Shown here piece after piece: positions 2-15,500 of a stretch of DNA of 43,883 nucleotides. The stretch comes from Pseudohongiella sp. (lineage in GTDB: Bacteria > Pseudomonadota > Gammaproteobacteria > Pseudomonadales > Pseudohongiellaceae), in the NCBI GenBank assembly GCA_030696315.1, contig JAUYSM010000114.1:1-43883 (forward strand), given 5' to 3'. How positions within the stretch are numbered: the stretch's first letter is position 1; every line of letters starts with the position of its first letter. Position numbers and translations under genes: made by a program. Under the pieces are notes generated by a model. The model did not search any database. It was not told the origin of the DNA and saw only the letters and a program-made list of their open reading frames with translations.

Positions 2-1636
2 TGTCTGATCCCGGCGCTTTATGGGCAAACGGAACAAACGCCTGACGATCCTGCTCCGGTCACAGAACAAGCGGTTCAGATGACTGAACCCGCGACGCTT
101 GAAAGTCTTTTGCTGCAACTCACCGAAGCCAGTCTGGGAGAAGCCGCAGCGCTTATTCCGCAATTGGAAGAACAGGGCGGCCGCACCGTGCTGCCGCTGT
201 TCACCGCCATGCTTGCCAATGAACTGGTGTTTGATCCCATTACCCGACAGCTGTATATCCGTTCGGAAGTATCCAACACCGTGAGCGTGCGCGATGTGTT
301 TACCAATGACGATGCTGCTGAATCACTCAATATTGACTCGCTGGAACGCATTCGACTGAATAACCGGCTACGGGTATTGCTGCGCGACGGCATCGCTCGC
401 ATCAGTCTGTTTGAGGGTAATGAGCGTGAGCGCGAGGCGGCGGCGTTAAACATGCTGGGTGATCTCAACGACGCTAACCTGGCACTGCTGCAAGAAGCCT
501 TGGTAGAGGAAGAAGACGGCGCAGTCCGTGAAATGATTGAAGTTGGCATTGCCATGAATACCTTGGTGATGCAGACAACACAGGAGCAACGTATTCAGGC
601 AGTCGAGGTGCTGCGCGGGCGTCTTGAAAATCCGGTGCGTAATCTGCTCACCAGTTTGCAGGACCCCGCAGGCAGAAACGAACAGGACCCGCTGGTGCTC
701 GAAGCCGTTGATGAGGCGCTGGAATCCATTCAGACACGCATACAGTTCTTCAGATTTGTGGAAGAACTTTTTTATGGCTTGAGTCTGGGTTCGGTTTTGT
801 TACTGGCCGCCATTGGTCTGGCAGTGACCTTTGGTGTCATGGGTGTCATCAATATGGCGCACGGCGAAATGCTGATGCTGGGTGCCTACACCACCTATGT
901 GGTGCAACTGCTGATGCCTAATTTCATAAACTACTCTTTGTGGGTAGCGATCCCTGCTGCGTTTATGGTGTCGGCCTTGGTGGGCATGTTGATTCAGCGT
1001 TATGTGATTCGATATCTCAACGGTCGGCCGCTGGAAACCTTATTGGCCACTTTTGGCATCAGTCTGATTTTGCAGCAACTGGTACGCACCATTTTTTCAC
1101 CGCTGAATCGCCTGGTGGTGTCGCCCGACTGGATGAGTGGCACCTGGCAAATCAATCCGGTGTTGTCGTTTACCAACAATCGTTTATATATCCTGATTTT
1201 TTCGCTGATGGTGTTTTTTGCACTGCTGGTGATTCTGAAAAAAACGTCGCTGGGATTGCAGGTACGCGCGGTGTCGCAGAACCGCAACATGGCAAAAGCC
1301 ATGGGTATTCGTACCGACTGGGTGGATGCCATGACCTTTGGTTTGGGTTCAGGCATTGCCGGTATCGCCGGTGTGGCCTTGAGTCAGTTGACCAACGTCG
1401 GCCCCAACCTCGGGCAGGCCTACATCATCGATTCATTTATGGTGGTGGTGTTTGGTGGCGTAGGCAATCTGTTTGGCACCCTTGTTGGCGCGTTCACATT
1501 GGGTGTTTCCAATAAATTTCTGGAACCGGTCACCGGTGCTGTGCTGGCAAAAATCATAACGCTGGTGTTTATCATTGTGTTCATTCAGTTCAGACCTAAA
1601 GGCCTGTTCCCGCAAAAAGGCAGGGCAGCAGAATGA
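2..1636 (+). CDS. urtB: Urea ABC transporter permease UrtB (5' end outside window)
   Basis: UrtB is one of two inner-membrane permeases of the urea uptake system UrtABCDE, of the branched-chain amino acid (LivH) type. The frame is open from base 2, before the first internal ATG at 80, and the upstream residues (CLIPALYGQTEQ...) look like the end of a signal peptide. The real start is therefore probably outside the window, and ATG 80 is unlikely to be the start. A soluble region of about 240 residues precedes the membrane domain, which is normal for UrtB and absent from LivH. The membrane part begins near LFYGLSLGSVLLLAAIGLA and carries the LivH-like GVMGVINMAHGE motif. The stop overlaps the urtC start (ATGA at 1633). 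UrtA, the binding protein, should lie just upstream. Confidence 0.93.
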   Translation, partial: CLIPALYGQTEQTPDDPAPVTEQAVQMTEPATLESLLLQLTEASLGEAAALIPQLEEQGGRTVLPLFTAMLANELVFDPITRQLYIRSEVSNTVSVRDVFTNDDAAESLNIDSLERIRLNNRLRVLLRDGIARISLFEGNEREREAAALNMLGDLNDANLALLQEALVEEEDGAVREMIEVGIAMNTLVMQTTQEQRIQAVEVLRGRLENPVRNLLTSLQDPAGRNEQDPLVLEAVDEALESIQTRIQFFRFVEELFYGLSLGSVLLLAAIGLAVTFGVMGVINMAHGEMLMLGAYTTYVVQLLMPNFINYSLWVAIPAAFMVSALVGMLIQRYVIRYLNGRPLETLLATFGISLILQQLVRTIFSPLNRLVVSPDWMSGTWQINPVLSFTNNRLYILIFSLMVFFALLVILKKTSLGLQVRAVSQNRNMAKAMGIRTDWVDAMTFGLGSGIAGIAGVALSQLTNVGPNLGQAYIIDSFMVVVFGGVGNLFGTLVGAFTLGVSNKFLEPVTGAVLAKIITLVFIIVFIQFRPKGLFPQKGRAAE

Positions 1637-2757
1637 GCGCCTTCATCAAAAACTTCGTCAATACCTGGGCGGACATCCGGCGCGGTGGCAACACCATTAC
1701 CGTGTTTGTGCTTGTGCTGTTTACGCTCACCGTCCTGGCTTCTTTTTCGAATTTATTTATACCGGTTGATTCGGTATTTCACGTCAGCACCTACACCATC
1801 ACCTTGCTGGGCAAATACCTGTGTTATGCCATGCTGGCGCTGGCGGTGGATGTGATCTGGGGTTATTGCGGCATTCTCAGTCTGGGGCACGGCGCATTTT
1901 TTGCGATTGGCGGTTATGCCATGGGCATGTACCTGATGCGGCAGATTGGTGACCGGGGTGTCTACGGCAATCCCGATCTGCCGGACTTTATGGTGTTCCT
2001 GAACTGGGATTCTTTGCCGTGGTTCTGGCTGGGCATGGATCAGTTCTGGTTCGCCATGTTGATGGTGATGGTGGTGCCGGGGCTGCTGGCATTTGTGTTC
2101 GGCTGGTTGGCCTTTCGCTCACGTGTCACCGGTGTGTATCTGTCGATCATGACGCAGGCGCTGACTTACGCGCTGATGCTGGCTTTTTTCCGCAACGAAA
2201 TGGGTTTCGGCGGCAATAACGGCATGACCGATTTTAAAGAGTTGCTGGGCTTCAGTTTGAGCGCTGACACCACACGCGTGTCTCTTTTCATGATTACCGC
2301 GTTGATGTTGGGCATTGCGTTTGTGTGCAGCCAGCTGATTATGAAATCACGGTTGGGCCGCGTCATTATTGCGGTGCGCGACAGTGAAGCGCGAGCGCGT
2401 TTTCTGGGTTATCGCACAGAGAACTATAAGGTCTGGTTGTTTGTGTATTCCGCGTTGATTGCCGCCATTGCCGGCGCCTTGTACGTTCCACAGGTGGGCA
2501 TCATCAATCCTGGTGAGTTCAGTCCCATCAACTCGATTGAAGTGGTGGTGTGGGTAGCTGTTGGCGGGCGCGGCACACTGTACGGCGCGGCCGTTGGCGC
2601 CATTCTGGTGAGTTATGCAAAAACCCGGTTTACAGCGCTGGTGCCGGAAAGCTGGATTTTTATGCTGGGCGCGCTGTTTGTGATTGTCACGATTTTCCTG
2701 CCAAAAGGTCTGGCAGGGCTGATTCGTGGTAAATCTGCGTCGGAGGTGGGTTCATGA
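1633..2757 (+). CDS. urtC: Urea ABC transporter permease UrtC
   Basis: This 374-residue polytopic membrane protein is the second permease subunit of the urea importer (LivM type). It pairs with UrtB to form the channel. The sequence shows several hydrophobic segments, the family motif WGYCGILSLGHGAFFAIGGYA near residue 75, and the C-terminal VGGRGTLYGAAVGA and LPKGLAGL motifs typical of LivM-like permeases. The ATG at 1633 overlaps the urtB stop, and the gene ends in an ATGA overlap with urtD, so translation of the transporter genes is probably coupled. Length is normal for UrtC. Confidence 0.95.
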   Translation: MSAFIKNFVNTWADIRRGGNTITVFVLVLFTLTVLASFSNLFIPVDSVFHVSTYTITLLGKYLCYAMLALAVDVIWGYCGILSLGHGAFFAIGGYAMGMYLMRQIGDRGVYGNPDLPDFMVFLNWDSLPWFWLGMDQFWFAMLMVMVVPGLLAFVFGWLAFRSRVTGVYLSIMTQALTYALMLAFFRNEMGFGGNNGMTDFKELLGFSLSADTTRVSLFMITALMLGIAFVCSQLIMKSRLGRVIIAVRDSEARARFLGYRTENYKVWLFVYSALIAAIAGALYVPQVGIINPGEFSPINSIEVVVWVAVGGRGTLYGAAVGAILVSYAKTRFTALVPESWIFMLGALFVIVTIFLPKGLAGLIRGKSASEVGS

Positions 2758-3533
2758 TTCTCAGCCCGGTAGTAAAACCCGATGTGTCGCACAACGTCAT
2801 TTTGTACATTGAAGGTCTGTCGGTCAGTTTTGATGGTTTTAAAGCGCTGAACAATCTCAGCCTGTATATCAACGACGGCGAATTGCGTTGCCTGATTGGG
2901 GCCAACGGCGCGGGCAAAACCACCTTGATGGACGTGATCACGGGCAAAACCAAATGTGACGCTGGACAAGTATGGTTTGGTCAGACCATTGACCTGCTGA
3001 AACATGATGAAGCGGCAATTGCGCGTCTGGGGATCGGACGCAAGTTTCAGAAACCTACCGTGTTTGAAGCATTGTCTGTTTTTGAGAATCTGGAGCTGTC
3101 GCTGCGCAGCGCCAAAGGCGTGTGGGCGACGCTGTTTGCCCGCCTCAATGGTGAGCAGCGCGATCTGATTGATCAAGTGCTGCACACCATAGGTCTCACA
3201 CAAGAACGGTTGCGGCCGGCAGGGGTGTTGTCTCACGGTCAAAAACAGTGGCTGGAAATTGGCATGTTGCTGGTATCCCAGCCCCGCGTGATGTTGATTG
3301 ATGAACCGGTGGCAGGCATGACCGCCCAGGAAACCGAGCATACCGCCGAGCTGCTGACCTCGCTGGCTGGCGAGCGCACAGTGATTGTGGTTGAGCATGA
3401 CATGGAATTCGTGCGTAGCATCGCGCGCACCGTGACTGTGCTGCATCAGGGTTCAGTGCTGGCCGAAGGCACCATGGATCAGATACAGAGCAATCCGGAT
3501 GTCATTCAGGTGTACCTGGGGGAAGCGCCATGA
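2754..3533 (+). CDS. urtD: Urea ABC transporter ATPase UrtD
   Basis: UrtD is one of the two ATPase subunits that power urea import through UrtBC (LivG type). The 259-residue protein has a Walker A motif GANGAGKTT near residues 49-57, an ABC signature LSHGQKQWLEIG (His replaces the usual first Gly, as is common in UrtD), Walker B VMLIDEP and the switch histidine in VVEHDMEF. It starts at ATG 2754 inside the urtC stop codon and ends in an ATGA overlap with urtE. The order B-C-D-E and the shared overlaps indicate a single transcript. Confidence 0.95.
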   Translation: MILSPVVKPDVSHNVILYIEGLSVSFDGFKALNNLSLYINDGELRCLIGANGAGKTTLMDVITGKTKCDAGQVWFGQTIDLLKHDEAAIARLGIGRKFQKPTVFEALSVFENLELSLRSAKGVWATLFARLNGEQRDLIDQVLHTIGLTQERLRPAGVLSHGQKQWLEIGMLLVSQPRVMLIDEPVAGMTAQETEHTAELLTSLAGERTVIVVEHDMEFVRSIARTVTVLHQGSVLAEGTMDQIQSNPDVIQVYLGEAP

Positions 3534-4237
3534 GCTCTTTGCCTATGATCAGAATCGAAAAGCTCAATCAACGTTATGGCGGTTCACAAATCCTGTGGGA
3601 TATTGATCTTGACATCAAACAAGGCTCCTGCACCTGCATCATGGGGCGCAATGGCGTGGGCAAAACCACGCTGCTGAAATGTCTGATGGGTTTATTGCCC
3701 GTGCAAAGCGGCGCCATTTATCTTGATAACAAAGCGATTCAGACGCTGCCTGCCCATCAGCGTGCACGGGCGGGAATAGGCTTTGTGCCGCAGGGTCGCG
3801 ATATTTTCCCCATGCTGACAGTGGAAGAAAATCTGCTGACCGGTTTGCCTTGTCGCAAAGACGGGCTTAAAACCATTCCCGGACGAATCTTTGAGTTATT
3901 TCCGGTACTGGCAGAGATGTTGCATCGTCGTGGTGGAGATCTGTCCGGCGGACAGCAACAACAGCTGGCCATAGGGCGCGCGTTGGTGACAGATCCACAA
4001 GTGTTGGTGCTGGATGAACCAAATGAGGGCATCCAACCCAATATCGTGAGCCAGATTGGGGATGTGATCATGAAATTGAACAGCGAAGGCCTGACGGTGA
4101 TCCTGGTTGAGCAGAAACTTGGGTTTGCACGGCGAGTGGGCAGTGAATTTCGCCTGATGGGAAAAGGTCGCGTGGTGGCCAGCGATGTCATGAGCGGTTT
4201 AAGTGAAGAGCTGATCAAACGCCATTTGGCCGTGTGA
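3530..4237 (+). CDS. urtE: Urea ABC transporter ATPase UrtE
   Basis: UrtE is the second ATPase of the urea importer (LivF type) and would form the nucleotide-binding heterodimer with UrtD. The 235 residues contain Walker A GRNGVGKTT (about 39-47), the FVPQGRDIFPMLTVEENL stretch characteristic of UrtE, the signature LSGGQQQQLAIGRAL, and Walker B VLVLDEPNEGIQPNIV. The EPNEGIQP motif separates UrtE from generic LivF, which usually has EPSEGLAP or similar. The gene starts at ATG 3530 overlapping the urtD stop. Only 10 bases separate its stop from the GTG start of ureD, so transporter and urease genes are contiguous. Confidence 0.95.
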   Translation: MSSLPMIRIEKLNQRYGGSQILWDIDLDIKQGSCTCIMGRNGVGKTTLLKCLMGLLPVQSGAIYLDNKAIQTLPAHQRARAGIGFVPQGRDIFPMLTVEENLLTGLPCRKDGLKTIPGRIFELFPVLAEMLHRRGGDLSGGQQQQLAIGRALVTDPQVLVLDEPNEGIQPNIVSQIGDVIMKLNSEGLTVILVEQKLGFARRVGSEFRLMGKGRVVASDVMSGLSEELIKRHLAV

Positions 4238-4247
4238 GCATTGCCCG

Positions 4248-5144
4248 GTGATCTCAGGCTCTGATCTCAAAGCAGATGTACTGCCTGCCAGCCAATGGCA
4301 CGCATCCCTGGCGCTGTGTTTTGCGCAAACCAGTCGTGGCTGTCGACTGATGCACAGTGCGCATCACGGGCCCTTGTATGTGCAAAAACCTTTTTATCCG
4401 GAAGGCGCCGATGTGGCGCACGTGTATTTGTTGCATCCACCTGGTGGGCTGGTCTCTGGCGACCGCTTAAACGTGGATATTCAATTGCAGAGCAACGCGC
4501 ATGTGCTGCTGACCACACCTGGTGCAGGGCGCGTTTATCGCGCCCGTCGTGATCGCACTTTACAACAGTTGTGCACCACATTGGAGCTGTCGGAAGGTGC
4601 TGTGCTGGAGTATCTGCCGCAGGAAACCATCGTGTATCCGTCGGCGTCTGCACAGCTGCAAACCAGAATTGAGCTGGCACCAGGTAGCCGCTGTATTGCC
4701 TGGGAAATTTGTTGTCTCGGATTGCCGGCCAGTGATCTCAGATTTTCGGACGGTGAACTTAAACAGGCGCTCAGTATTTACGCTGGTAAAAAACCGCTGC
4801 TGATCGAGCGTTTTGAGCTCAATGCACACAACCGTGATTTGTATGAAGCGGCGATTGGTCTGCGCGGCCAGCCCGTCACGGCCTTGATGGTGGCCGGGCC
4901 GCTGAACGCCGATCAACTCGCAGACACCAGTCTGGATGCGTTGCTGGAGTTATTGCGCAGTGTGATTGCCGGTTATGAATCAAAGTCCTTGTGTGCCGTC
5001 AGCGTGATTAATGGTTTTGTCACAACACGGTACTTGGGCAGCAATGCGGATGAAGCCAAACGAATGTTTATCAGCCTGTGGCAGGTGCTGCGACCGGCTC
5101 TGATCGGACGGCAGGTGTGTGCCCCGCGCATCTGGGCGACATGA
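4248..5144 (+). CDS. ureD: Urease accessory protein UreD (UreH)
   Basis: UreD is the scaffold protein that binds apo-urease and, with UreF and UreG, delivers nickel to the active site. The 298-residue sequence has the family hallmarks YVQKPFYPEG, HLLHPPGGLVSGDRL-like (here YLLHPPGGLVSGD) and LLTTPGAGRVYRA in its N-terminal half, YLPQETIVYPSA in the middle and a terminal PRIWAT. The annotated start is GTG 4248, 10 bases after urtE. No ATG lies near this position and an upstream TTG at 4241 is a weaker option. A 64-base gap without an obvious terminator separates it from ureA, so it belongs to the urease operon. Confidence 0.94.
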   Translation: MISGSDLKADVLPASQWHASLALCFAQTSRGCRLMHSAHHGPLYVQKPFYPEGADVAHVYLLHPPGGLVSGDRLNVDIQLQSNAHVLLTTPGAGRVYRARRDRTLQQLCTTLELSEGAVLEYLPQETIVYPSASAQLQTRIELAPGSRCIAWEICCLGLPASDLRFSDGELKQALSIYAGKKPLLIERFELNAHNRDLYEAAIGLRGQPVTALMVAGPLNADQLADTSLDALLELLRSVIAGYESKSLCAVSVINGFVTTRYLGSNADEAKRMFISLWQVLRPALIGRQVCAPRIWAT

Positions 5145-5208
5145 CACTGGCAGAGATTTTGCTTTATAACAAGTGCAGTGCAATGCAATGACGTGCGGAT
5201 AAAACATT

Positions 5209-5511
5209 ATGGAATTATTGCCCAGAGAAAAAGACAAGCTGCTGTTGTTTACCGCAGCATTATTGGCTGAGCGCCGACTGGCGCGAGGCCTGAAGTTGAA
5301 TTACCCGGAAGCGGTGGCGCTGATTTCCATGGCCATCATGGAAGGTGCCCGCGATGGAAAAAGTGTGGCGCAGTTGATGAGTGAAGGCAAAAACGTGCTG
5401 CGTGCCGATCAGGTGATGGAAGGCATTGCCGAGCTGATTCCAGAGGTGCAAGTCGAAGCCACATTCCCGGATGGTACCAAGCTGGTGACCGTGCACAATC
5501 CGATTAACTGA
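5209..5511 (+). CDS. ureA: Urease gamma subunit UreA
   Basis: UreA is the small structural subunit of the cytoplasmic urease (urea + H2O to ammonia and carbamate). The 100 residues match the normal gamma-subunit length. It begins with [20 protein letters not shown] and contains [25 protein letters not shown] and the terminal [10 protein letters not shown], all family-typical. The start is ATG 5209, preceded by only a weak ribosome binding site. Separate gamma, beta and alpha genes are the usual proteobacterial arrangement, unlike the fused subunits of Helicobacter. Confidence 0.97.
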
Positions 5512-5577
5512 ACATCTGTAGCCAGGAAGCTGGTTCTGTAAAAAAACCATGGGCTGTAACACAAGAGACGCATTGAG

Positions 5578-5916
5578 ATGAGTTCAACAAGCCTTAAAAG
5601 CAGCTGTTTTATTCCCGGTGAAATAATCACTGATGGCCCGGATATTGAAATCAATGTCGGCAGACCGACACTGGCGCTGACCGTGGAAAACACCGGTGAC
5701 CGTCCTGTGCAGATTGGCTCACATTATCATTTTGCCGAAGTGAATCCTGCCTTGCGTTTTGACCGCGCAGCGGCGCGTGGATTTCATCTGAATATTGCAG
5801 CAGGCACGGCTGTCCGCTTTGAACCGGGCCAAAGTCGACACGTGGAATTGGTCGCCTATGCAGGCGATCGCCAGGTGTTTGGATTCCGCGGTGAGGTAAT
5901 GGGCGCACTCGATTAA
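5578..5916 (+). CDS. ureB: Urease beta subunit UreB
   Basis: UreB is the second structural subunit of urease. The 112-residue protein has the family core FIPGEI (here preceded by about 11 extra residues, [10 protein letters not shown]), then [24 protein letters not shown] and the C-terminal [16 protein letters not shown] and FGFRGEVMG motifs. Many UreB proteins begin directly at MIPGEI, so the short N-terminal extension is slightly unusual. There is no alternative ATG closer to the core. The ribosome binding site before ATG 5578 is weak. The gene is 66 bases after ureA and 14 bases before ureC. Confidence 0.96.
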
Positions 5917-5930
5917 TCAGGAGAAACACC

Positions 5931-7652
5931 GTGGCAAAAATTGATCGGGTAAGTTACGCACAAATGTTCGGTCCCACTGTGGGCGACCGCGTGCGGCTGG
6001 CTGATACGGACTTATGGGTACAAGTTGAAAAGGACTTCACGCGTTATGGCGATGAGGTCAAATTCGGCGGAGGCAAAGTCATCCGTGACGGCATGGGACA
6101 AAGCCAGCGCGGTGATCGCGACAGTATGGATCTGGTGATCACTAATGCCTTGATCATCGATCACTGGGGCATTGTCAAAGCCGATGTCGGCGTTAAACAC
6201 GGACGCATTCAAAAAATCGGTAAAGCCGGTAACCCGGACGTGCAGGAAGGTGTGGATATCATCATTGGTCCCGGCACCGAAATTATTGCCGGGGAGGGCT
6301 CCATATTGACGGCAGGCGGAGTGGATTCGCATATCCACTTTATTTGTCCGCAGCAGATTGAAGAAGCGCTGATGTCGGGCGTGACCACCATGCTCGGTGG
6401 TGGTACCGGTCCGGCAACCGGCACCAATGCCACCACCTGTACACCGGGCATCTGGTACATGCAGCGCATGTTGCAGGCCACCGATCAGTTACCAATGAAT
6501 TTTGGTTTTCTGGGCAAGGGTAATGGCAGTTTGCCGGGCCCGCTGATTGAACAGCTGCGAGCGGGCGCTTTTGGTCTGAAGTTGCACGAAGACTGGGGTA
6601 CCACACCGGCATCCATCGATAACTGCCTGTCGGTTGCCGACGCCCATGATGTGCAGATTGCCATTCATACCGACACCTTGAATGAATCCGGTTTTGTGGA
6701 TGACACCATTGCCGCCTTCAAGGATCGTGTGATCCACACCTACCACACCGAAGGGGCCGGTGGTGGTCACGCGCCCGACATTATCAAGGCTTGCTCCTTG
6801 CCTAACGTACTGCCGTCGTCTACCAATCCCACGCGGCCTTACACCATCAACACCGTGGATGAACATCTGGACATGCTGATGGTCTGCCACCATCTGGACG
6901 CCTCTATTCCAGAGGATGTGGCGTTTGCAGATTCGCGCATTCGCAAGGAGACCATCGCCGCTGAAGATATCCTTCACGACCTCGGTGCCTTCAGCATGAT
7001 TGCATCCGACTCGCAGGCCATGGGGCGCGTGGGAGAAGTCATCACGCGCACCTGGCAGACCGCGCACAAAATGAAAGTGCAACGTGGCGCGCTGCGTGAT
7101 CCGGATCTCGCCGCAGGCATCAGCAGTCCGGCAGACAACTTTCGTGTGCGCCGTTACATCGCCAAATACACCATCAATCCGGCCATTACTCATGGTATTG
7201 CGCATGAAGTAGGCTCCATTGAAGTGGGCAAACTGGCCGATCTGGTGCTGTGGAAGCCGGCGTTTTTTGGCATCAAGCCGTCGCTGATTATCAAGTCGGG
7301 CATGATTGCTGCGGCGCCGATGGGAGATCCCAATGCGTCCATTCCGACACCACAACCCGTGCACTATCGGCCGATGTTTGGTGCCTATGGTGCTGCGGCC
7401 GCGGCTTTGTCGGTCACGTTCACCAGTCAGTTGGCACTGGATACTGGCACGCTGCCGGCGCTGGGTTTAACGCGTCGCCTCAGCGCCTGCCGTAACACCC
7501 GCACGCTGCGCAAACAGGACATGGTGTTAAACACCTGGCTGCCTCGTATCGAGGTGGATGCTCAGACCTATGAAGTGCGCGCCAATGGCGAGTTGCTGGT
7601 GTGTGAGCCGGCGACCGTGTTGCCGCTGGCACAGCGCTACTGCCTGTTTTAA
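5931..7652 (+). CDS. ureC: Urease alpha (catalytic) subunit UreC
   Basis: UreC carries the di-nickel active site. The 573-residue protein begins at GTG 5931, with the ribosome binding site AGGAG just upstream. The nickel and catalytic residues known from Klebsiella urease are all present: the HxH pair in DSHIHFI, the carbamylated lysine in GLKLHEDWG, the histidines in [12 protein letters not shown] and [12 protein letters not shown], the mobile-flap Cys-His pair in MVCHHLD, and the aspartate in [13 protein letters not shown]. It should therefore be an active enzyme. The C-terminus [11 protein letters not shown] is canonical. An Ala-rich run ([12 protein letters not shown]) replaces the more usual GA-rich loop and is a minor variation. 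It is the core of the urt-ure operon. Confidence 0.98.
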
Positions 7653-7677
7653 GAGCTGGTTTTTAAGGAAACGCATC

Positions 7678-8250
7678 ATGTTGGAAATTTATGAGCGACT
7701 GGGCACACAGGGCAATTACCCAGCGGATACCCGTGTGATTCTCACCCATGAACAACGTGACCGTGGCCGTCTTCGCGTGTTTTCACCTGAGGGTGAGGAA
7801 ATCAGAATTTTTCTGACGCGTGGTTCGCCTTTGCTGGTGGGCGAGACCTTACGTGCGCAGTGCGGTCGTTATGTACTGGTCGAGGGGGCCATAGAGCCGG
7901 TTGCCGTGGCCAGCTGTGAAGATTGGCCGACGTTTGCGCGCGCCTGTTATCACCTTGGCAATCGTCACGTCAAAGTGCAGGTAGGGGAACGTGTGTTGCG
8001 CATTCTGCCGGATCATGTGCTGGAAGAGATGTTGCAGCAACTGGGACTGGTGATTGAGCATGCGATGCATGTGTTTGTGCCGGAATCGGGCGCGTATTCT
8101 CATGGAAGTGGGCACGGACACGGACATCACAAAGACGCCCATCACGCGGCCTTGATGCCGATCAGTAAACCAGACGCTGTGTTGAGTTCGATTGATAGCC
8201 TGGAGCTGACCTCACCGGTATCCAACAAAAGGCACCATGAACACCACTGA
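7678..8250 (+). CDS. ureE: Urease accessory nickel metallochaperone UreE
   Basis: UreE binds nickel and passes it to UreG for insertion into urease. I chose ATG 7678 (MLEIYERLG), which has a ribosome binding site (AAGGAA) 7 bases upstream. A longer frame reaches back to 7558 inside ureC but has no support. The 190-residue product shows the LTHEQRDRGRLR core, the conserved metal-site motif YHLGNRHVKVQV, and DHVLEEMLQQLGL. The C-terminal tail is rich in histidine (SHGSGHGHGHHKDAHH, and a second cluster RHHEHH at the very end), typical of nickel-storing UreE. The last 14 bases overlap the ureF start. Confidence 0.95.
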   Translation: MLEIYERLGTQGNYPADTRVILTHEQRDRGRLRVFSPEGEEIRIFLTRGSPLLVGETLRAQCGRYVLVEGAIEPVAVASCEDWPTFARACYHLGNRHVKVQVGERVLRILPDHVLEEMLQQLGLVIEHAMHVFVPESGAYSHGSGHGHGHHKDAHHAALMPISKPDAVLSSIDSLELTSPVSNKRHHEHH

Positions 8251-8905
8251 ATTGGCCCTGTTAAAACTCATGCATCTGAGCAGCCCCGGTTTGCCGGTAG
8301 GGGCCTATGCGTTTTCACAAGGCCTGGAATACGCCATCGAGGCGGGATGGCTGCGGTCGGATGTTGATGTCAGCCAGTGGTTGGAAGCACAACTGTTTTT
8401 TGCGCTGGCCCGGCTCGACATTCCGCTGCTGCTGCGTCTGCACAAAGCCATTGCGGACAATGACCACGAACAAACACAGTGGTGGAATGACTATGGTCTG
8501 GCCAGTCGTGAAACCCGCGAGTTGCAGCTGACCGATACAGCCACCGGCCTCGCCTTGCAACGCCTGTTGCCAAGCCTGTCCGTGCCTGCGCTGGCCTGCG
8601 AGCCGCCGGTGAGTTTTGTGTGTGGTTATGCACAAGCGGCCGTCAACTGGCAGATCAGCGCTGAGATGGCAGCGCTCGGTTATTGCTGGTCATGGCTTGA
8701 GAATCAGGTTAACGCCGCTACCAAACTGGTGCCACTCGGACAAACGCAGGCGCAAAAATTGTTAAACATTTTGCAGGAAAAAATTCCTCTGGCCATTGAA
8801 CAGGCCAAAGGGCTGGGTGATGACGATCTGGGCATGAGTCTGCCTGCGTTGACCCTGGCGAGTATGTATCACGAAACCCAATACACGCGGTTGTTCCGCT
8901 CTTGA
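8237..8905 (+). CDS. ureF: Urease accessory protein UreF
   Basis: UreF works with UreD and UreG in the urease activation complex and is thought to control UreG GTPase activity. The 222 residues show LKLMHLSSPGLPVGAYAFSQGLEYA near the N-terminus and SRETRELQLTDTATGLALQRLL in the middle, both UreF signatures, and the C-terminal LPALTLASMYHETQYTRLFRS. Length is normal. ATG 8237 lies inside the His-rich end of ureE in another frame, so the two are probably translationally coupled. A 70-base gap with a small 5-bp hairpin (8921-8935) follows before ureG. Confidence 0.94.
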   Translation: MNTTELALLKLMHLSSPGLPVGAYAFSQGLEYAIEAGWLRSDVDVSQWLEAQLFFALARLDIPLLLRLHKAIADNDHEQTQWWNDYGLASRETRELQLTDTATGLALQRLLPSLSVPALACEPPVSFVCGYAQAAVNWQISAEMAALGYCWSWLENQVNAATKLVPLGQTQAQKLLNILQEKIPLAIEQAKGLGDDDLGMSLPALTLASMYHETQYTRLFRS

Positions 8906-8975
8906 GCAGGGGTGATTTCACTCACTCCCGGTGAGCAGACAATACTTTGGCAATGATCAGACAGGAGGACCATAA

Positions 8976-9683
8976 ATGAGCACACAACACCCCAGACAGA
9001 CACTGAGAATCGGCGTCGGTGGCCCGGTGGGTTCCGGAAAAACCGCTTTGTTGCGCGCTTTGTGTACCGCGATGCGGGATCACTACGACATCGCGGTTGT
9101 CACCAATGATATCTACACTAAAGAAGACGCCAATTTTTTAACCAAACACGAAGCACTCAGCGCGGATCGTATTATCGGGGTGGAAACCGGTGGTTGCCCG
9201 CACACCGCGATTCGGGAAGATGCCTCCATGAATCTGGCAGCCATTGATGAGCTGTTACGCCGTCATGGCCCGGTTGAGCTGATTTTTGTTGAAAGTGGCG
9301 GTGACAATCTCAGTGCGACTTTCAGTCCGGAACTGTCGGACTTGACCCTGTACGTGATTGACGTATCGGCAGGTGACAAAATTCCGCGAAAAGGCGGGCC
9401 GGGTATTACCAAATCAGATCTGCTGATTATTAATAAAACCGACCTGGCGCCGTTGGTCGGTGCGTCACTGGACGTCATGCGTGACGACGCTGCGCGCATG
9501 CGAGGGGAACGCCCGTTTGTGTTCAGTAATCTCAAAACCGGCCAGGGACTGGATCAGATCATCGACTTTATTGTTGAGTACGGCATGCTGCAGGAGCGAC
9601 TCAGCGGATCGGTGCTGGTCAGTATGATGGCAGGGGTCACTGCCGCTGGCGCTGGTTTTCCACACGATAATCGAGGTGCATGA
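8976..9683 (+). CDS. ureG: Urease accessory GTPase UreG, with C-terminal extension
   Basis: UreG is the SIMIBI-class GTPase that carries nickel from UreE to the UreDF-urease complex. The sequence shows the P-loop GGPVGSGKT (15-23), the metal-binding CPH motif (74-76), [15 protein letters not shown], the [10 protein letters not shown] segment and the guanine-specificity NKTD (153-156). A strong AGGAGG ribosome binding site precedes ATG 8976. Known UreG proteins are about 200-210 residues and end soon after the equivalent of [11 protein letters not shown]. This one continues for roughly 27 more residues (from about 207 to 235), which I do not recognise. The stop TGA at 9681 overlaps the start region of the following small gene. 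Confidence 0.96.
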
Positions 9684-9944: not shown

Positions 9945-9967
9945 GCGGGATTGTGTGTTAATCCCGC
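9945..9967. terminator. Hairpin between convergent urease operon and response regulator
   Basis: A perfect 8-bp inverted repeat (GCGGGATT, loop GTGTGTT, AATCCCGC) sits 14 bases after the last + strand urease-operon gene and overlaps the TAA stop of the - strand response regulator (9958-9960). Convergent position suggests a bidirectional terminator. There is no clear U-tract on either side, so intrinsic termination would be weak. Confidence 0.4.
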
Positions 9968-10896
9968 TCCAGCACGCTCAGAGCAATTCGTGCCGCAGCT
10001 GTGCGGTTTTGCACGCTGAGCTTCTTGAAAATCTGTTCCAGGTGTTTGTTTACTGTGCGCGGGCTCATCTGCAGAATTTGCGCGGCTTCCCAGTTGGTTT
10101 TGCCCTGGCTGATCCACGCCAGCACTTCGGATTCACGTTTGGTCAGGTTGAGTTTTTCGCGCAGCAAATCTTCGCCGGTGGTTTCCGCAGCTTCCGACAG
10201 GCGCAGCAGTTTTTCATCCTCATTGATGTGACGGATGAAGGTCACACTCAGGCGTTTTTCCTGCAGACTCGCGCCGCTGCCGGAGGTCACCGCCAGCGAT
10301 AACATCTGCTCGGGTTCACGTTGCGCGGGTGGTGCAAACCAGTTGTGCAAGGCCGTGGCTAAGGATGTAGTCTGCCATTCCTCACTGGCGCCGGCGCGCG
10401 CAAACAAGGCCAATGTTTGTGGGGTAGCCCACAAAATGCGGCCCTGCCGGCTGACCGAGAACAGGTGTTGTCCTGCAGAGTCCAGGGCGTTGTAGGCACT
10501 GCTGGTCAGACGTGCGTTATTCAGATGCACACTCATCCGCGCCAACAATTCTTCCGGTTTTATCGGTTTGGTCAGGTAATCCACACCGCCGGCTTCCAAT
10601 CCTTTGACGATGCTCGCAGAATCACTCAGGCCGGTCATAAAAATTACCGGAATGGCTGCCAGTTCTGGAATGGCCCGTAATTCACGGCAGGTTTCAAAGC
10701 CATCTTTGTTGGGCATGATGGCATCCATCAAAATCATGTCCGGTCGTATCCTGCGCGCGATGGTCAGCGCTTGTCTGCCTTCAAGCGCTACCAGCACGTT
10801 ATAACCGGCATCCTCCAGTGTGTCATTGACGAAGCTTAATGATTCGGGAGAATCATCAACCACCAGCACTACATTTGAATGGGATTTTTTGCTCAT
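9958..10896 (-). CDS. Response regulator, receiver + middle domain + LuxR-type HTH
   Basis: This 312-residue transcription factor has an N-terminal receiver (VVLVVDDSPE, phospho-acceptor D58 in ILMDAIMPNKDG, conserved K110 in LTKPIKPEE). A middle region of about 90 residues resembles a degenerate PAS-like segment (LFSVSRQGRILWATPQTLALFARAG). The C-terminal LuxR/NarL helix-turn-helix reads LTKRESEVLAWISQGKTNWEAAQIL...SPRTVNKHLEQIFKKL. It starts at ATG 10896, in an ATGA overlap with the hybrid kinase gene upstream, so the two form one operon and a likely cognate pair. It runs towards the urease operon. Control of urea or nitrogen-source genes is plausible from context but not shown by the sequence. 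Confidence 0.9.
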   Translation of the reverse strand: MSKKSHSNVVLVVDDSPESLSFVNDTLEDAGYNVLVALEGRQALTIARRIRPDMILMDAIMPNKDGFETCRELRAIPELAAIPVIFMTGLSDSASIVKGLEAGGVDYLTKPIKPEELLARMSVHLNNARLTSSAYNALDSAGQHLFSVSRQGRILWATPQTLALFARAGASEEWQTTSLATALHNWFAPPAQREPEQMLSLAVTSGSGASLQEKRLSVTFIRHINEDEKLLRLSEAAETTGEDLLREKLNLTKRESEVLAWISQGKTNWEAAQILQMSPRTVNKHLEQIFKKLSVQNRTAAARIALSVLERD

Positions 10897-13800
10897 GATC
10901 CTGTGTCGCTCATGTTATCGCCTGTTGCAGGCGAGTCGGGAAGGGGACTTTTTGGTTTTTGAAAACTGCGCACAATCTGATTGAATTGCATCACGTCCAG
11001 CAGGCCTTTCAGATAACGACGCGCCGGTTCATTGATAAGTCCTTTTTGTGTCATCTCGTCGAGTTTGTTCTGCACACCACGTTTGTAACCAAGCTCCGCG
11101 CAGGTCACCAGTTCGCGCGCCAGTTCATGATCAACCAGTGCCGCAAGATCGGTGGGTGGCACCAGCGCCAAGCTGTCGTCGTGTTCTTTGTCCGGATTTT
11201 TATGAATCCAGTTGAGCGACAACAGACGGCCAATGGTCTCAAGCAATTGTTGATGATTGATGGGTTTGACCAGATAGGCATTGTGGGCATCCAGCCTCTG
11301 CAGATTGCGGTGGCGTTCCTGCGCATCCGCAGAAATCATGATGATGGGCTGCTGTAAGCCCAGCGTTCGAAGACGCGCCGCCAACTCAAGGCCATCCATG
11401 CCCGGCATGCTGACATCCACCAGAAATAGATCAGGTGATACGGTTTTCACAACTTCCAGACAGTCAAACGCGTCAGGTGATTCAAGCAGTGTGAAACCCA
11501 GCGGCGGTAACAACTCTGCCATCAAACCTCGGTGAATAGGATCGTCGTCGATCACCATCACCACTTTGCGCTCACCGGCATACCCTTCGATATGTCGCTG
11601 CGGCGGGGTTTGCAGCAAAGGTTCGGTGACACGCGACATCATCAGGCTGACTTTAAAACAACTACCGATACCGGGTTGACTCTGAATGTCCAGTTCACCG
11701 CCCATGATGTCGGTCAGCAAACGCACTATCGTCAGACCAAGACCGGTGCCGGGTACATTGGGTGCATCCGGGCCGCGCACTCGTTCAAACGGATCAAGAA
11801 TGCGCTGCATGTCCTTTTCATTGATGCCTATGCCGGTATCCACCACTGAGAATTCCGCGACCTGGTTGCGATAGCGCACATGAAATTCCACACTGCCTTG
11901 TTGGGTGTATTTGATGGCGTTTGAAAGCAGATTGATCAGGATCTGCCGCAGACGTTTTTCATCTGTGGTAACCACTTCCGGCAACTTGTTGTGTACATGG
12001 CAGGTGAACTGAATGCCTTTTTCCAATGCCATGGTGCGGAACATCTGAATCATCTGCTCCACCAGTTCCGGCAACTTGACATGGTTGCGATAAATCTCGA
12101 GACGACCCGCTTCGATTTTTGAAATATCCAGCAAGCCCTCAATCAAACCAGCCAGATGTTCACCGCTGCGCTTGATGATCTGAATGGCTTCGCGGCTGCG
12201 TAGCGGTATCTCATCGCGCTGACTCAGTATCTGCGCATAGCCGAGAATCGCCTGCAGGGGCGTACGCAGTTCATGGCTGATGCCCGACAGATATCGGCTC
12301 TTGGCTTCATTGGCGCGTTCTGCCAGATCCTTGGCTTTTTGTAACTGTTGGTCAGTCTGATTGTGTGCCTCAATTTCCAGCATCAGGCGACTGGTCTGCC
12401 GGGTGGATTCCTGTTGTGCAACTTCGCGGCTTTCACTGGCCAACAGGTACAGCCAACAAATGACCCCCAAAACAATCAGCATGACAAAAAACAACATGGT
12501 CAGCGCTTGCTGCAACAACTGCGAATCTGCTCCAGCCAGTGGTGCCATCTGGAAATACACCAGTCCCAGCATGGCGGCGCTGATGGCATTGGCCGTACCA
12601 AACAAGGTGAAAAAACGCACCATGCGACGGCCGACCGGCTGAAAAAATACCGTGTGCAGCCAGGGTTTTAGCCAGTTCTCCAACTGATTAGCCAGCCGGC
12701 CATTGGGTTTGCAACTGTCCATACACCGCGAATCAAGCGAGCAACACAAGGAGCAGATGGCACCCTGATACGCTGGGCAATACGCCATATCCTGTCGTTC
12801 AAACGGGTTCTCGCAGATACAACATTGCAGAGAGTTGTCATGATCTTTAACGTGTATCAACTCGTTAAGTTCAGGAGACTGACGCGCCAGATAAAACCGG
12901 CCGCGCGTGAGAATTGCAATCAGAGGTACGGTAATAAAACACATGCCCAGGCTGATAAAGTGCGCCAGGTGTTTAGCCGTGTCGCCAAACAAACCCAGGT
13001 AACACAACACACCGGTGATCGATGCCAGCAATACGGAAACGGTGCCAACCGGGTTGATGTCATACAAATGCGCGCGTTTGAACTCAACAAAGGACGGACT
13101 GAGTTTGAGCGGTTTGTTGATCATCAGATCTGCTGACAAAGAGCCCAGCCAGCTCAATGTGACAATGGAGAACAGACCCAATATGGCTTCCAGCGCGCGA
13201 TACAGCCCCAGCTCCATCAACAGCAGCGCGATGGCCACATTAAACACCAGCCACACAACACGCCCGGGATGACTGTGTGTCAGCCGCGAGAAGAAGTTTG
13301 ACCAGGCGATCGAGCCCGCATAGGCGTTGGTAACATTGATCTTCATTTGCGAGATCACCACCATCAGGCCGGCCAGCACCAGCGACAGGGTAGGTGAGCT
13401 GCTGATGTAGTTGAACACCATCTGGTACATATAGGTGGGGTCGGCAGCACGCTCCGGGCTGTCGCCTGCCGTGATGGCGATATAGGCCAGAAAGGAGCCC
13501 AGCAACATTTTGATGATGCCAATCAGAATCCAGCCCGGTCCGGCGAGTGACAACCAGAACCACCAGCGTCGTGAATTGGTTTTAGTTTTTTCCGGCATAA
13601 AACGCAGGTAATCCACTTGCTCACCAATTTGTGCAACCAGTGAAAACAACACTGCGGCTGATGCGCCAAACAATCCCAGATTAAAGCCGCTGACACCCGC
13701 ACCGGTGGTGGCGGGCATGTACGCTGCCCAGTCTTCCACGCGGGCAAATTCAAACCAGGCGACCACGGCCAGCGCGGTGCATTGCAGCGTCAGCCAGAAT

Positions 13801-14384
13801 GTCTGAGTGCCGACCTGAAATTTGGAAATCATGGTGATGCCATGCGTCACAATCGGAATGACCGCGATGGCACATAATATGTACCCCAGCCACAAAGGAA
13901 TGCCGAGCAAGGCGCGTAACGCAGAGGCAAGAATGGCGCCTTCAATGGCAAAAAAGATGAAGGTAAAGGAAGCGTAAATCAGTGAGGTGATGGTGGAGCC
14001 CAGATAGCCGAAGCCTGCACCGCGTGTCAGCAGATCGATGTCCAGCCCGTACTTGGCAGCGTTATAGGCAATCGGGAAACCGGTCACAATAATCACCAGC
14101 CCCACTGCCAGCATGGCCGCCACAGCATTGACTGCACCGTAACTGAGCGTGATGGTCGCGGCAATCGCTTCCAGCGCCAGAAAGGCGGTTGCGCCAAGCG
14201 CTGTCTTGGCAACCTGCTCGATGCTCCAGCGCCGCGCCTTGACGGCGGTAAAACGCAGCGCGTAGTCCTCCAGCGTCTCGTTGCCTACCCAGACGTTGTA
14301 CTTGCGTCGTACGCGGAATATCTGTTGTGTCGCTTTCATCGAGCAGTGGTCCAAAACCTGACACAGCACATTCCATTGCTTCAT
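10893..14384 (-). CDS. Hybrid sensor histidine kinase fused to an NCS1-type transporter domain
   Basis: This protein has 1163 residues if started at 14384. Met16 (14339) is an equally plausible start, and neither has a clear ribosome binding site. Residues about 30-500 form a multi-span domain resembling NCS1 nucleobase/allantoin permeases (NETLEDYALRF; AYNAAKYGLDIDLLTRGAGFG; YAGSIAWSNFFSR). Residues about 521-558 are a Cys cluster (C521, C522, C524, C536, C544, C547, C548, C554, C558) resembling a zinc-binding module. Two more membrane spans (about 590-612, 628-648) precede HisKA (H704 in ISHELRTPLQ), HATPase (N822; DTGIGI 849-854; GTGLGL), and a receiver (DDD 946-948; D990; K1040). A 120-residue tail follows. 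Autokinase residues are intact. The substrate is unknown; neighbouring urea genes suggest a nitrogen compound. Confidence 0.9.
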   Translation of the reverse strand: MKQWNVLCQVLDHCSMKATQQIFRVRRKYNVWVGNETLEDYALRFTAVKARRWSIEQVAKTALGATAFLALEAIAATITLSYGAVNAVAAMLAVGLVIIVTGFPIAYNAAKYGLDIDLLTRGAGFGYLGSTITSLIYASFTFIFFAIEGAILASALRALLGIPLWLGYILCAIAVIPIVTHGITMISKFQVGTQTFWLTLQCTALAVVAWFEFARVEDWAAYMPATTGAGVSGFNLGLFGASAAVLFSLVAQIGEQVDYLRFMPEKTKTNSRRWWFWLSLAGPGWILIGIIKMLLGSFLAYIAITAGDSPERAADPTYMYQMVFNYISSSPTLSLVLAGLMVVISQMKINVTNAYAGSIAWSNFFSRLTHSHPGRVVWLVFNVAIALLLMELGLYRALEAILGLFSIVTLSWLGSLSADLMINKPLKLSPSFVEFKRAHLYDINPVGTVSVLLASITGVLCYLGLFGDTAKHLAHFISLGMCFITVPLIAILTRGRFYLARQSPELNELIHVKDHDNSLQCCICENPFERQDMAYCPAYQGAICSLCCSLDSRCMDSCKPNGRLANQLENWLKPWLHTVFFQPVGRRMVRFFTLFGTANAISAAMLGLVYFQMAPLAGADSQLLQQALTMLFFVMLIVLGVICWLYLLASESREVAQQESTRQTSRLMLEIEAHNQTDQQLQKAKDLAERANEAKSRYLSGISHELRTPLQAILGYAQILSQRDEIPLRSREAIQIIKRSGEHLAGLIEGLLDISKIEAGRLEIYRNHVKLPELVEQMIQMFRTMALEKGIQFTCHVHNKLPEVVTTDEKRLRQILINLLSNAIKYTQQGSVEFHVRYRNQVAEFSVVDTGIGINEKDMQRILDPFERVRGPDAPNVPGTGLGLTIVRLLTDIMGGELDIQSQPGIGSCFKVSLMMSRVTEPLLQTPPQRHIEGYAGERKVVMVIDDDPIHRGLMAELLPPLGFTLLESPDAFDCLEVVKTVSPDLFLVDVSMPGMDGLELAARLRTLGLQQPIIMISADAQERHRNLQRLDAHNAYLVKPINHQQLLETIGRLLSLNWIHKNPDKEHDDSLALVPPTDLAALVDHELARELVTCAELGYKRGVQNKLDEMTQKGLINEPARRYLKGLLDVMQFNQIVRSFQKPKSPLPDSPATGDNMSDTGS

Positions 14385-14659: not shown

Positions 14660-15016
14660 ATGAATAACTATTCAGAAGACCTCAATTTACGCTTTGGCGC
14701 GCTGTCGGATCCGACCCGGCGTCAAATCATGACCAGACTTTGCGCAGGGCCGGCCTCTGTCGGCGAACTGCGCGAGCCTTTTACTATCGCGCTGCCGAAC
14801 TTGCTCAAGCACATTCATGTGCTGGAGGCCAGTGGTCTGATCCAAACGCATAAACACGGTCGCACGCGGATATGTGCGCTCAACCCTGATGCGTTGTCTG
14901 CGACGGAAAATTGGTTGGCAGAGCAACGTCAGTTGATGGAAGGCCGCTTTGATCGCATGGAAGCCTATCTAAAAACGCTCAAAACGAACCCGGACAAGGA
15001 GAATGATAGTGAGTGA
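14660..15016 (+). CDS. ArsR-family winged-helix transcriptional regulator
   Basis: This 118-residue DNA-binding protein belongs to the ArsR/SmtB-like group commonly paired with SRPBCC proteins. It has the signature FGALSDPTRRQIMTRLCAGP at residues about 12-31, a recognition region around ALPNLLKHIHVLEASGLIQT, and the beta-wing HKHGRTRICALNPDAL. No cysteine metal site is visible, so it is probably not a metal sensor. The gene overlaps the following AHSA1/SRPBCC gene, an arrangement seen widely in bacteria. ATG 14660 has no upstream ribosome binding site and sits at the predicted transcription start. Confidence 0.9.
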   Translation: MNNYSEDLNLRFGALSDPTRRQIMTRLCAGPASVGELREPFTIALPNLLKHIHVLEASGLIQTHKHGRTRICALNPDALSATENWLAEQRQLMEGRFDRMEAYLKTLKTNPDKENDSE

Positions 15017-15500
15017 TCAAAACCAATCCGCGTGGCCGCAAGATTTGCTGCAAAGAGAGATTGTCCTGACCCGGTTGATTGATGCACCAAGGGAGCTTGT
15101 CTTTGAGGTCTGGAGCAACCCTGAACATTTACCCAATTGGTTTGGGCCAGCAGGTTTCACACTGCACACAAAAGAGATCAGTATTGCCGTGGGTGGTCGC
15201 TGGCGATTTGACATGATCGCGCCGGACGGCACGTGCTACACCAACCGTATGGTGTTTAAACGTATAGAACGGCCGTTACTGATCGAGGCAGATCATGGTG
15301 CTGACATAGACAACGATCCCAATACGTTTCATATGCTGGTTACGTTTATGGAGCAGAGCAATGGTAAAACTGTTGTCACGCTGCGCCAGATCCATCCGTC
15401 ACAGATGCGTCGCGATCAAGGTGTTGCGTTTGGGGCAGTGGAATATGGCAATCAGACCTTGGATAAACTGGCACAGTATGTGGCGATGCGGTCGTTATAA
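15009..15500 (+). CDS. SRPBCC (AHSA1/CalC-like) domain protein
   Basis: This single-domain protein of about 163 residues has the helix-grip START-like fold of the AHSA1/CalC family, which binds hydrophobic ligands or acts in stress responses; the ligand is unknown. Recognisable parts are TRLIDAPRELVFEVWSNPEH and LPNWFGPAGF near the N-terminus, VGGRWRFDMIAPDG in the middle, and a C-terminal helix GNQTLDKLAQYV. I prefer GTG 15009, 7 bases after AAGGAG (14996-15001); ATG 15003 lies too close to it. It overlaps the ArsR stop by 8 bases, suggesting coupled expression. It ends 6 bases inside the convergent kinase-like gene. Confidence 0.88.
   Translation: MSDQNQSAWPQDLLQREIVLTRLIDAPRELVFEVWSNPEHLPNWFGPAGFTLHTKEISIAVGGRWRFDMIAPDGTCYTNRMVFKRIERPLLIEADHGADIDNDPNTFHMLVTFMEQSNGKTVVTLRQIHPSQMRRDQGVAFGAVEYGNQTLDKLAQYVAMRSL

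Follow-up and report, generated by a model that had tools for sequence, protein, structure and literature searches.

A sensor kinase with an NCS1-like permease domain beside the urea genes of Pseudohongiella: a candidate receptor for urea and short-chain amides

What does a histidine kinase fused to a permease-like domain respond to, and which genes does it control? The question is raised by a gene of Pseudohongiella sp. (assembly GCA_030696315.1) on contig JAUYSM010000114.1, here labelled C48. The whole contig, 43,883 nt, was analysed and is called the window below. The gene codes for a hybrid sensor kinase with an NCS1-like input domain and lies, with a response regulator gene, next to urea transporter and urease genes. 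We consider it probable that this kinase is a receptor built from a permease for urea or short-chain amides, and that it controls the urt-ure genes through the adjacent regulator and a palindromic site. The genes concerned are the following.

10893..14384, minus strand: hybrid sensor histidine kinase whose input domain is an NCS1-like permease (open reading frame (ORF) of 1163 aa, open; kinase domains by Pfam)
9958..10896, minus strand: response regulator with receiver and LuxR-type helix-turn-helix (HTH) domains (Pfam)
80..4237, plus strand: urtB, urtC, urtD and urtE, urea ABC transporter (UrtB and UrtC over the NCBIfam cut-off; urtD and urtE by gene order and length alone)
4248..9683, plus strand: ureD, ureA, ureB, ureC, ureE, ureF and ureG (ureC and ureG by NCBIfam; the others by matches to Klebsiella pneumoniae genes bearing those annotations)

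The kinase and regulator ORFs overlap by 4 bp, and Pfam recognizes both the receiver and the GerE (LuxR/NarL-type) HTH of the regulator. This agrees with a previous interpretation of the same DNA, hereafter the sequence-only reading, which had placed the kinase in an operon with a LuxR-type regulator. That reading also had the pair facing a complete urt-ure operon. The pair and urtBCDE-ureDABCEFG are indeed arranged tail to tail, but the operon is incomplete in the window: the contig starts at urtB, and the urtA gene of the same genome is found on another contig (C23:333-1430, UrtA model match). The regulator gene lies directly 3' of the kinase gene in 97 of the 102 non-redundant loci with enough sequence (the exceptions are L156, L157 and L234-L236); six further non-redundant loci are too short for its position to be judged.

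The permease-kinase fusion

The kinase protein comprises six regions, all encoded on the minus strand. The start codon is probably that of the Met at residue 16 (window position 14339), since most aligned relatives begin near this residue.

Residues 16-505, 12870..14339: NCS1-like permease domain (AF2 model, PDB fold search, profile comparison)
Residues 519-560, 12705..12830: Cys-rich, zinc-ribbon-like module, CxxC-X11-C-X7-CxxCC-X5-C-X3-C
Residues 583-689, 12318..12638: two further helices, putatively transmembrane (TM) from their hydrophobicity, and a signalling helix (AF2 secondary structure)
Residues 694-760, 12105..12305: HisKA, phospho-acceptor H704 (Pfam)
Residues 807-915, 11640..11966: HATPase_c (Pfam)
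Residues 942-1051, 11232..11561: receiver domain, phospho-acceptor D990 (Pfam)

The nature of the permease domain was established from its fold and its profile. The AF2 model of residues 14-690, computed from a 65-sequence alignment, has a pLDDT of 83 and a pTM of 0.83, and the top five PDB folds found with it are all NCS1 proteins (Mhp1 and CodB; E 2e-8 to 5e-7, TM-score by target 0.68-0.75). In hhalign comparisons, the domain profile matched NCS1 with a probability of 98.6 over 410 columns, against 44.3 over 179 columns for SSS and 10.4 over 119 columns for AA_permease_2, two other LeuT-fold families; as a yardstick, NCS1 itself matches these two families at 95.6 and 97.3%, respectively. Direct searches were negative. 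Pfam gave no match of the fused domain to PF02133 (NCS1) at E<=10, and the sub-cut-off matches it did give are attributable to chance (e.g. GerPE, E 0.12); PF02133 has no match anywhere in the genome of the window. A PDB sequence search with the permease domain returned nothing credible, with two chance matches at E 0.5-0.7. PF00474 (SSS/SLC5) has no Pfam match in the kinase protein. The Pfam scan gave no STAC domain match either, the presence of a STAC model in Pfam not having been checked. A free-standing relative from K. pneumoniae (P0003), 42% identical to the domain, matches PF02133 with 38.1 bits for a cut-off of 23.5, and a 552-aa protein of another genome (G077) matches both PF02133 and the permease domain of the window. 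Because of the fold, the profile-profile comparison and this PF02133-matching relative, we read the domain as a divergent NCS1 branch that is mostly unseen by Pfam.

The proposed fusion of an NCS1-like permease with a hybrid kinase is thus borne out, as is the parallel drawn with the SLC5-fused kinases CbrA and CrbS but with a different transporter family. The signalling residues are also intact, as had been claimed. We aligned the kinases longer than 1000 aa among loci L040-L139, plus that of the window (n=91, near-copies included): H704, the invariant N- and G-box residues and the receiver D990 are conserved in 91/91, and K1040 in 90. NahK/ErcS-type and TorS-type identities were discarded, as these NCBIfam models match the kinase part alone and far under their cut-offs.

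Urea and amide genes near the sensor and a candidate operator

Of 293 genomes sampled from the order, 80 have a match to the domain, in one case (G073) just a 98-aa fragment; among 398 genomes sampled from the phylum, 52 match a free-standing query. A weak partial match at G047:C317 (E 9e-4) was rejected as a sensor locus; urea and amide queries have no match there, and only a generic kinase was found. A GTDB scan gave at least 590 relatives. The best 80 of these, mostly Alpha- and Gammaproteobacteria by record title, were retained, so that the counts are biased toward kin of the window. The domain also matches 533 plasmid records, 342 of them from Klebsiella, of which at least two match through a free-standing gene. 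One conjugative K. pneumoniae plasmid (L209, 5909-16243) carries a sensor of type F, defined below, with its regulator, a urtABCDE-like transporter and a formamidase. A locus of the other type, U, is present on pSymB of Sinorhizobium meliloti strain AK76 (L212). A metagenome-assembled genome labelled Burkholderiales (L079) has a 67%-identical domain, possibly owing to mis-binning or transfer.

Two types of operons were distinguished in the vicinity of the kinase genes. Type U loci have urtABCDE and/or urease genes. In type F loci, genes for an FmdDEF-like amide/urea ABC transporter are followed by those for the formamidase FmdA, for FmdB and often for an aliphatic amidase. The type F transporter genes are usually divergent from the kinase gene, and they are annotated 'urea ABC transporter' in both annotated records that were opened. 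Near-copies included, 155 loci from two collections comprise 77 of type F, 39 of type U, three with both and 36 with neither; two of these loci hold a free-standing gene alone. Among 112 non-redundant domains that are not free-standing, four of them truncated where a contig or locus stops, 55 are of type F, 31 of type U, two of both and 24 of neither within the fetched stretch (L254 being counted as neither despite adjoining a free-standing permease gene). At one locus (L232/L233, G562:C1), two fused kinases are encoded on the same strand ~9 kb apart, the first adjoining a type F operon.

Operon type follows the phylogeny of the permease domain. On a tree of 123 rows under 90% identity, built by a quick method, type F requires 10 changes against 40.5 for shuffled labels, and type U 15 against 27.8. 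The clade of the window (37 rows, SH-aLRT 100) contains 22 domains of type U, 15 of neither and none of type F. Co-occurrence in genomes points in the same direction. The UrtA model, with its cut-off status judged from E-values, gives scores to type F binding proteins as well; it is over its cut-off in 75/80 domain-bearing genomes and in 69/213 genomes without the domain (Fisher 4e-23). At 82 kinase places, a match to this model lies within 5 kb in at least 28 and within 25 kb in at least 48. In each of two genomes (G098 and G180) that have two kinases, one lies ~10 kb from urtA and the second adjoins an fmd operon (L140, L141).

Word and dyad counts, made with no starting guess on the 59 divergent regions that separate kinase from urtA-like genes, gave a candidate binding site. 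This palindrome, ATACGTCA-NN-TGACGTAT, is matched at 11 or more of its 14 positions in 41/50 type F and 7/9 type U regions, as opposed to 18/1180 shuffled regions. A matrix was built from the 48 sites, none of which comes from the genome of the window. In that genome, it identifies two adjacent sites (C23:1631 and 1648; scores 20.9 and 17.3) ~100 bp ahead of the putative start codon of urtA; shuffling the 44-kb window five times gave scores of 12.9 at most.

The site was then looked for ~800 bp upstream of UrtA-coding genes in 20 kinase-positive and 20 kinase-negative genomes, hand-picked before scoring; the urtA regions of the positives are outside the training set of the operator, and further kinase-positive genomes were left out. 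Scores of at least 14 were found in 16/20 genomes with the kinase and 0/20 without (Fisher 1.5e-7), for a maximum of 12.4 in 200 shuffles; counted by genus, the proportions are 7/9 and 0/17 (p 5e-5). Among the genomes sampled, the operator is present upstream of urtA only in those that bear the kinase. Sites were also found between sensor and free-standing permease genes (L231, L254), and between the sensor and urtA-like genes on the Klebsiella plasmid mentioned above. The functional tie to urea genes proposed by the sequence-only reading is thus upheld by conserved gene order, co-occurrence and the operator. The outcome that this reading named as its main refutation, homologues with no conserved urea neighbourhood, was not observed.

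Two side observations belong here. An operator-like site with a score of 25.1 is present 12 kb from urtA (G000:C23:13384-13402; L309 4385-4403), ~500 bp upstream of a 1145-aa ORF resembling TonB-dependent receptors; it is a possible further target of the regulator. In the window, positions 14660-15500 (plus strand), divergent from the kinase gene, encode an ArsR-type regulator (HTH_20, Pfam) followed by a 165-aa ORF that by eye resembles SRPBCC/AHSA1 proteins; nothing ties these genes to urea.

Permease relatives, pocket residues and the Cys-rich module

We examined 13 loci of free-standing relatives of the permease domain (ten of 25 listed matches, plus L208, L210 and L231). Four adjoin urease genes, five adjoin formamidase or amidase genes, one adjoins a sensor kinase gene only (L254) and three adjoin none of these (L210, which is from Streptomyces, L250 and L257). 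The four urease-adjacent loci represent one K. pneumoniae locus found twice and two near-identical Acinetobacter plasmids. In K. pneumoniae, the gene for the 42%-identical relative starts 153 bp after ureG of ureDABCEFG.

L208 8944-10551 and L255 8001-9608: annotated 'cytosine permease', immediately downstream of the K. pneumoniae urease genes; a free-standing relative of the sensor domain

In the Acinetobacter plasmids, the free-standing gene is 5' of ureEFG-J-DABC. It is found with formamidase or amidase genes in Moraxella, Tsukamurella, Methylovirgula and one of two Arthrobacter. In one genome (G576), the regulator and sensor genes are divergent from permease-fmdA-fmdB-amidase, with the permease gene in the place usually occupied by those of the ABC transporter, and in an Acinetobacter baumannii record, a sensor gene is divergent from a free-standing permease gene. 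Because the free-standing relatives often adjoin urease or formamidase/amidase genes (9/13 loci), the sensor appears to be a urea/amide permease given a new role. The 'cytosine permease' of K. pneumoniae is probably misnamed.

Does the fused domain keep the binding sites of known NCS1 transporters? Its pocket positions were mapped onto Mhp1 through an NCS1 family member. In Mhp1, we take W117, W220, Q121 and N318 to form the substrate site, with the W117/W220 pair clamping hydantoin, and the side chains of S312 and T313 to form the sodium site. W117, W220, Q121, N318 and Q42 align with F144, G240, E148, N353 and F68 of the sensor, so that just N318 of the four substrate residues is retained. 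S312 and T313 align with K348 and I349, which are present in 154/154 fused copies. The sequence-only reading had counted on a permease domain that keeps its substrate- and sodium-site residues, an expectation largely contradicted by the absence of most of these Mhp1 side chains.

Other residues are conserved instead. E148, Q252, E255, Q256, D258, Q346, K348, I349, N350 and N353, which lie in TM3, TM6 and TM8 and are polar or belong to the core, are identical in 154/154 fused copies (with one gap at E148, hence 153/154 there) and in 12/12 free-standing copies; the fused set includes near-copies and the variants L234-L236. The sensors also have four fixed or almost fixed residues of their own, F68, E72, I186 and A356 (152-154/154), which occur in 0/12 free-standing copies. 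Since different conserved residues replace the Mhp1 side chains, we read the new set as a sign of changed substrate and coupling rather than lost function. The pocket would suit a small, polar, non-aromatic ligand. A receptor-only or sodium-independent role of the fused domain is plausible because E72, located in TM1, is specific to the sensors and the sodium-site side chains are lost.

The coupling to transport that the sequence-only reading had suggested is hypothetical. The fused domain might be a true transceptor that still transports urea or an amide, with kinase activity reflecting the transport cycle; such a mode has been proposed for CbrA. The identity of the ten residues from E148 to N353 in fused and free-standing forms would fit such a role, and so would the precedent of CbrA, a histidine-transporting sensor with a lysine in its Na2 site according to the available part of one report (PMC13022988), given that K348 aligns with S312 of Mhp1. 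On the other hand, the four sensor-fixed residues suggest a change near the pocket, and type F and/or U genes, mostly including those of a dedicated ABC transporter, are present at 88 of the 112 non-redundant loci. We regard a transceptor as possible but unlikely.

It is more doubtful still that the kinase controls urea and amide operons in response to another nitrogen signal, such as ammonium, cyanate, an imide or a nucleobase-like compound. The substrates of characterized NCS1 transporters are nucleobases, allantoin, hydantoins and similar compounds, as stated in the accessible text of PMC13390362. The neighbours of the sensors and of most free-standing permeases are instead urease, formamidase and aliphatic amidase genes. 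The residues of the presumed hydantoin clamp, W117 and W220, have given way to F144 and G240. Sensing of nucleobases or allantoin, which the NCS1 fold alone would suggest, is disfavoured because of these urea/amide neighbours and the loss of the aromatic clamp. Among the substrates proposed by the sequence-only reading, urea (together with short-chain amides) is thus favoured by the neighbouring genes, which give no indication of allantoin, cytosine or hydantoin.

The permease domain is followed by the Cys-rich module, separated from the kinase part by two long hydrophobic helices in the AF2 model. Its eight cysteines (residues 521-558) are invariant in the 91 aligned kinases, and it may bind a metal. 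A Zn_ribbon_11 match was obtained on two free-standing relatives only, below the cut-off. Comparison of 12 free-standing C-terminal tails revealed the full motif in two permeases (L231 and, from Methylovirgula, L253) and a CxxC...CxxC form in seven others; it is absent from three actinobacterial ones (L251, L252, L257). As nine of 12 free-standing copies have one form or the other, the module is apparently a feature of the permease family and not of the kinase.

The permease-Cys-2TM unit is also fused to other outputs, namely PAS-GGDEF-EAL (L234), PAS-PAS-kinase-receiver (L235) and a plain kinase (L236). These fusions support a role as an input module, and the first of them points to amide-responsive cyclic di-GMP signalling.

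L234 6849-10520: permease-Cys module followed by PAS-GGDEF-EAL

Could the Cys-rich module itself be the input, sensing nickel, zinc or redox state, with the permease fold as a mere anchor? Urease needs nickel, and the cysteines are strictly invariant. The occurrence of the motif in free-standing permeases, the equally strong conservation of the permease core residues and the presence of both U and F types among the aligned kinases argue against it, and we consider this explanation improbable.

Proposed mechanism and place among transporter-derived sensors

We propose the following mechanism. Urea, or formamide or another small amide in type F systems, would bind directly in the central pocket of the NCS1-fold domain. 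The resulting conformational change would be relayed through the Cys-rich module and the two TM helices to the kinase, which would in turn phosphorylate the adjacent LuxR-type regulator. The phosphorylated regulator would bind the palindrome ~100 bp upstream of urtA, and the urt-ure operon would most likely be activated, rather than repressed, by the bound regulator.

Several observations weigh against this proposal. The sodium-site and aromatic residues of Mhp1 are not retained in the sensor domain, and PF02133 matches only one of six free-standing relatives tested. No clean substitution distinguishing types F and U is common to independent U lineages; as the two main U lineages share none, we claim no specificity residue. 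Twenty-four of the 112 non-redundant domains have no urea or amide gene in the fetched stretch: some of these are 16-23 kb from urtA, some are on short contigs and the remainder are unexplained. A congener (G001) retains kinase and regulator without a UrtA match, and a urease match is also absent from the 19 kb fetched at this locus (L174, G001:C2). Regarding the operator, the 3.96-Mb genome of the window has five places with at most two mismatches, as compared to 15 for a reversed control. The number of sites is not above chance, and the evidence therefore lies in their position: the sole place with at most one mismatch in the genome is the site upstream of urtA, and the site next to it also counts among the five. 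Inside the window, an operator beside the kinase gene was sought and rejected, as the three matches have three mismatches each, a level reached in 18/100 shuffles. Four of the 20 kinase-positive genomes lack a good operator, two having weak sites (scores 10.5 and 11.4; genomes G081 and G142) and two none (G274, G182). Eight of the 20 positives are from one genus, positives and controls differ in phylogeny, and both the co-occurrence and the operator evidence are comparative only.

The weakest alternative, in which the pair has other targets and both neighbourhood and operator are due to chance, might invoke the kinases found apart from urt/fmd genes and the strong site before the TonB-receptor-like ORF, but it is largely refuted by the operator comparison (16/20 against 0/20; by genus 7/9 against 0/17) and by UrtA co-occurrence, and we give it almost no credence.

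Transporter-derived sensor kinases are a known kind, with CbrA, CrbS, RpuS and Ks-Amt5 as examples. The SLC5/STAC kinases CbrA, CrbS and RpuS similarly have a LeuT-fold permease N-terminal to a histidine kinase. In contrast with them, the fold described here is NCS1 rather than SLC5, the Cys-rich module and two helices seem to take the place of STAC, and the associated operons are for urea or amides where, in the parts of the literature available, theirs are linked to histidine, acetate or pyruvate. The sodium-site lysine of CbrA has a possible counterpart in K348, and transport by CbrA depends on the proton motive force, as far as the same partial source describes (PMC13022988). The ammonium sensor kinase Ks-Amt5 is another transporter recruited as a sensor of a nitrogen source. 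In the portion of the article at hand (PMC5764959), its binding site includes an acidic residue of helix 1, E31, that is absent from assimilatory Amts, which may be compared with E72; Ks-Amt5 differs in its Amt fold and trimeric core, and amide operons do not figure in that text. As for the NCS1 transporters Mhp1, CodB, PucI and MetT, the sensor domain has a fold near that of Mhp1 and CodB and a profile similar to those of PF02133 members. Unlike them, it lacks the Mhp1 clamp and sodium-site side chains, carries a C-terminal Cys-rich module and would have urea or amides as ligands.

Two described gene clusters resemble type F loci. The Methylophilus fmdCABDEF cluster, in the available text of PMC10781810, encodes an amide/urea ABC transporter, a formamidase and a putative positive regulator, and it is induced by formamide and urea; a sensor for the inducer does not figure there. 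'urtABCDE operon III' of Ectopseudomonas guguanensis G3, with a hybrid histidine kinase and a LuxR regulator, resembles type F by annotation, its genes carrying generic names only in the accessible part of PMC13296017, where a permease domain, an operator or a role in sensing do not appear; among the papers listed, this one comes nearest. None of the papers listed in searches of the open PMC literature describes an NCS1-fused kinase, its Cys-rich module or a dedicated urea-sensing kinase. Beyond what the sequence-only reading had noted, the present analysis adds the Cys-rich module, the two extra helices, the free-standing permeases, the formamide branch and the operator.

We are evenly divided over a broader interpretation that would join these elements. 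NCS1 proteins would include an unrecognized urea/short-chain-amide branch, to which the 'cytosine permease' of the Klebsiella urease cluster would belong. This branch would have been reused several times as an input module, in hybrid kinases, a plain kinase and a GGDEF-EAL protein; E72 would convert the transporter to a receptor; and one palindromic operator would serve urea and formamide supply in Alpha- and Gammaproteobacteria and on Klebsiella plasmids.

The preferred reading, a receptor derived from a urea/amide permease, adds an NCS1 example to transporter-derived sensors such as CbrA and Ks-Amt5. Since this sensor has close free-standing relatives, residues that may separate sensing from transport can be named, namely E72, F68, I186 and A356. 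It also suggests that the label 'cytosine permease' or 'allantoin permease', when given to genes of urease and amidase clusters, is in some cases a misnomer for a urea/amide transporter. Finally, the sensor, its regulator and the palindrome form a candidate circuit for the use of nitrogen from urea and formamide, encoded by marine, soil and rhizobial bacteria as well as by Klebsiella plasmids.

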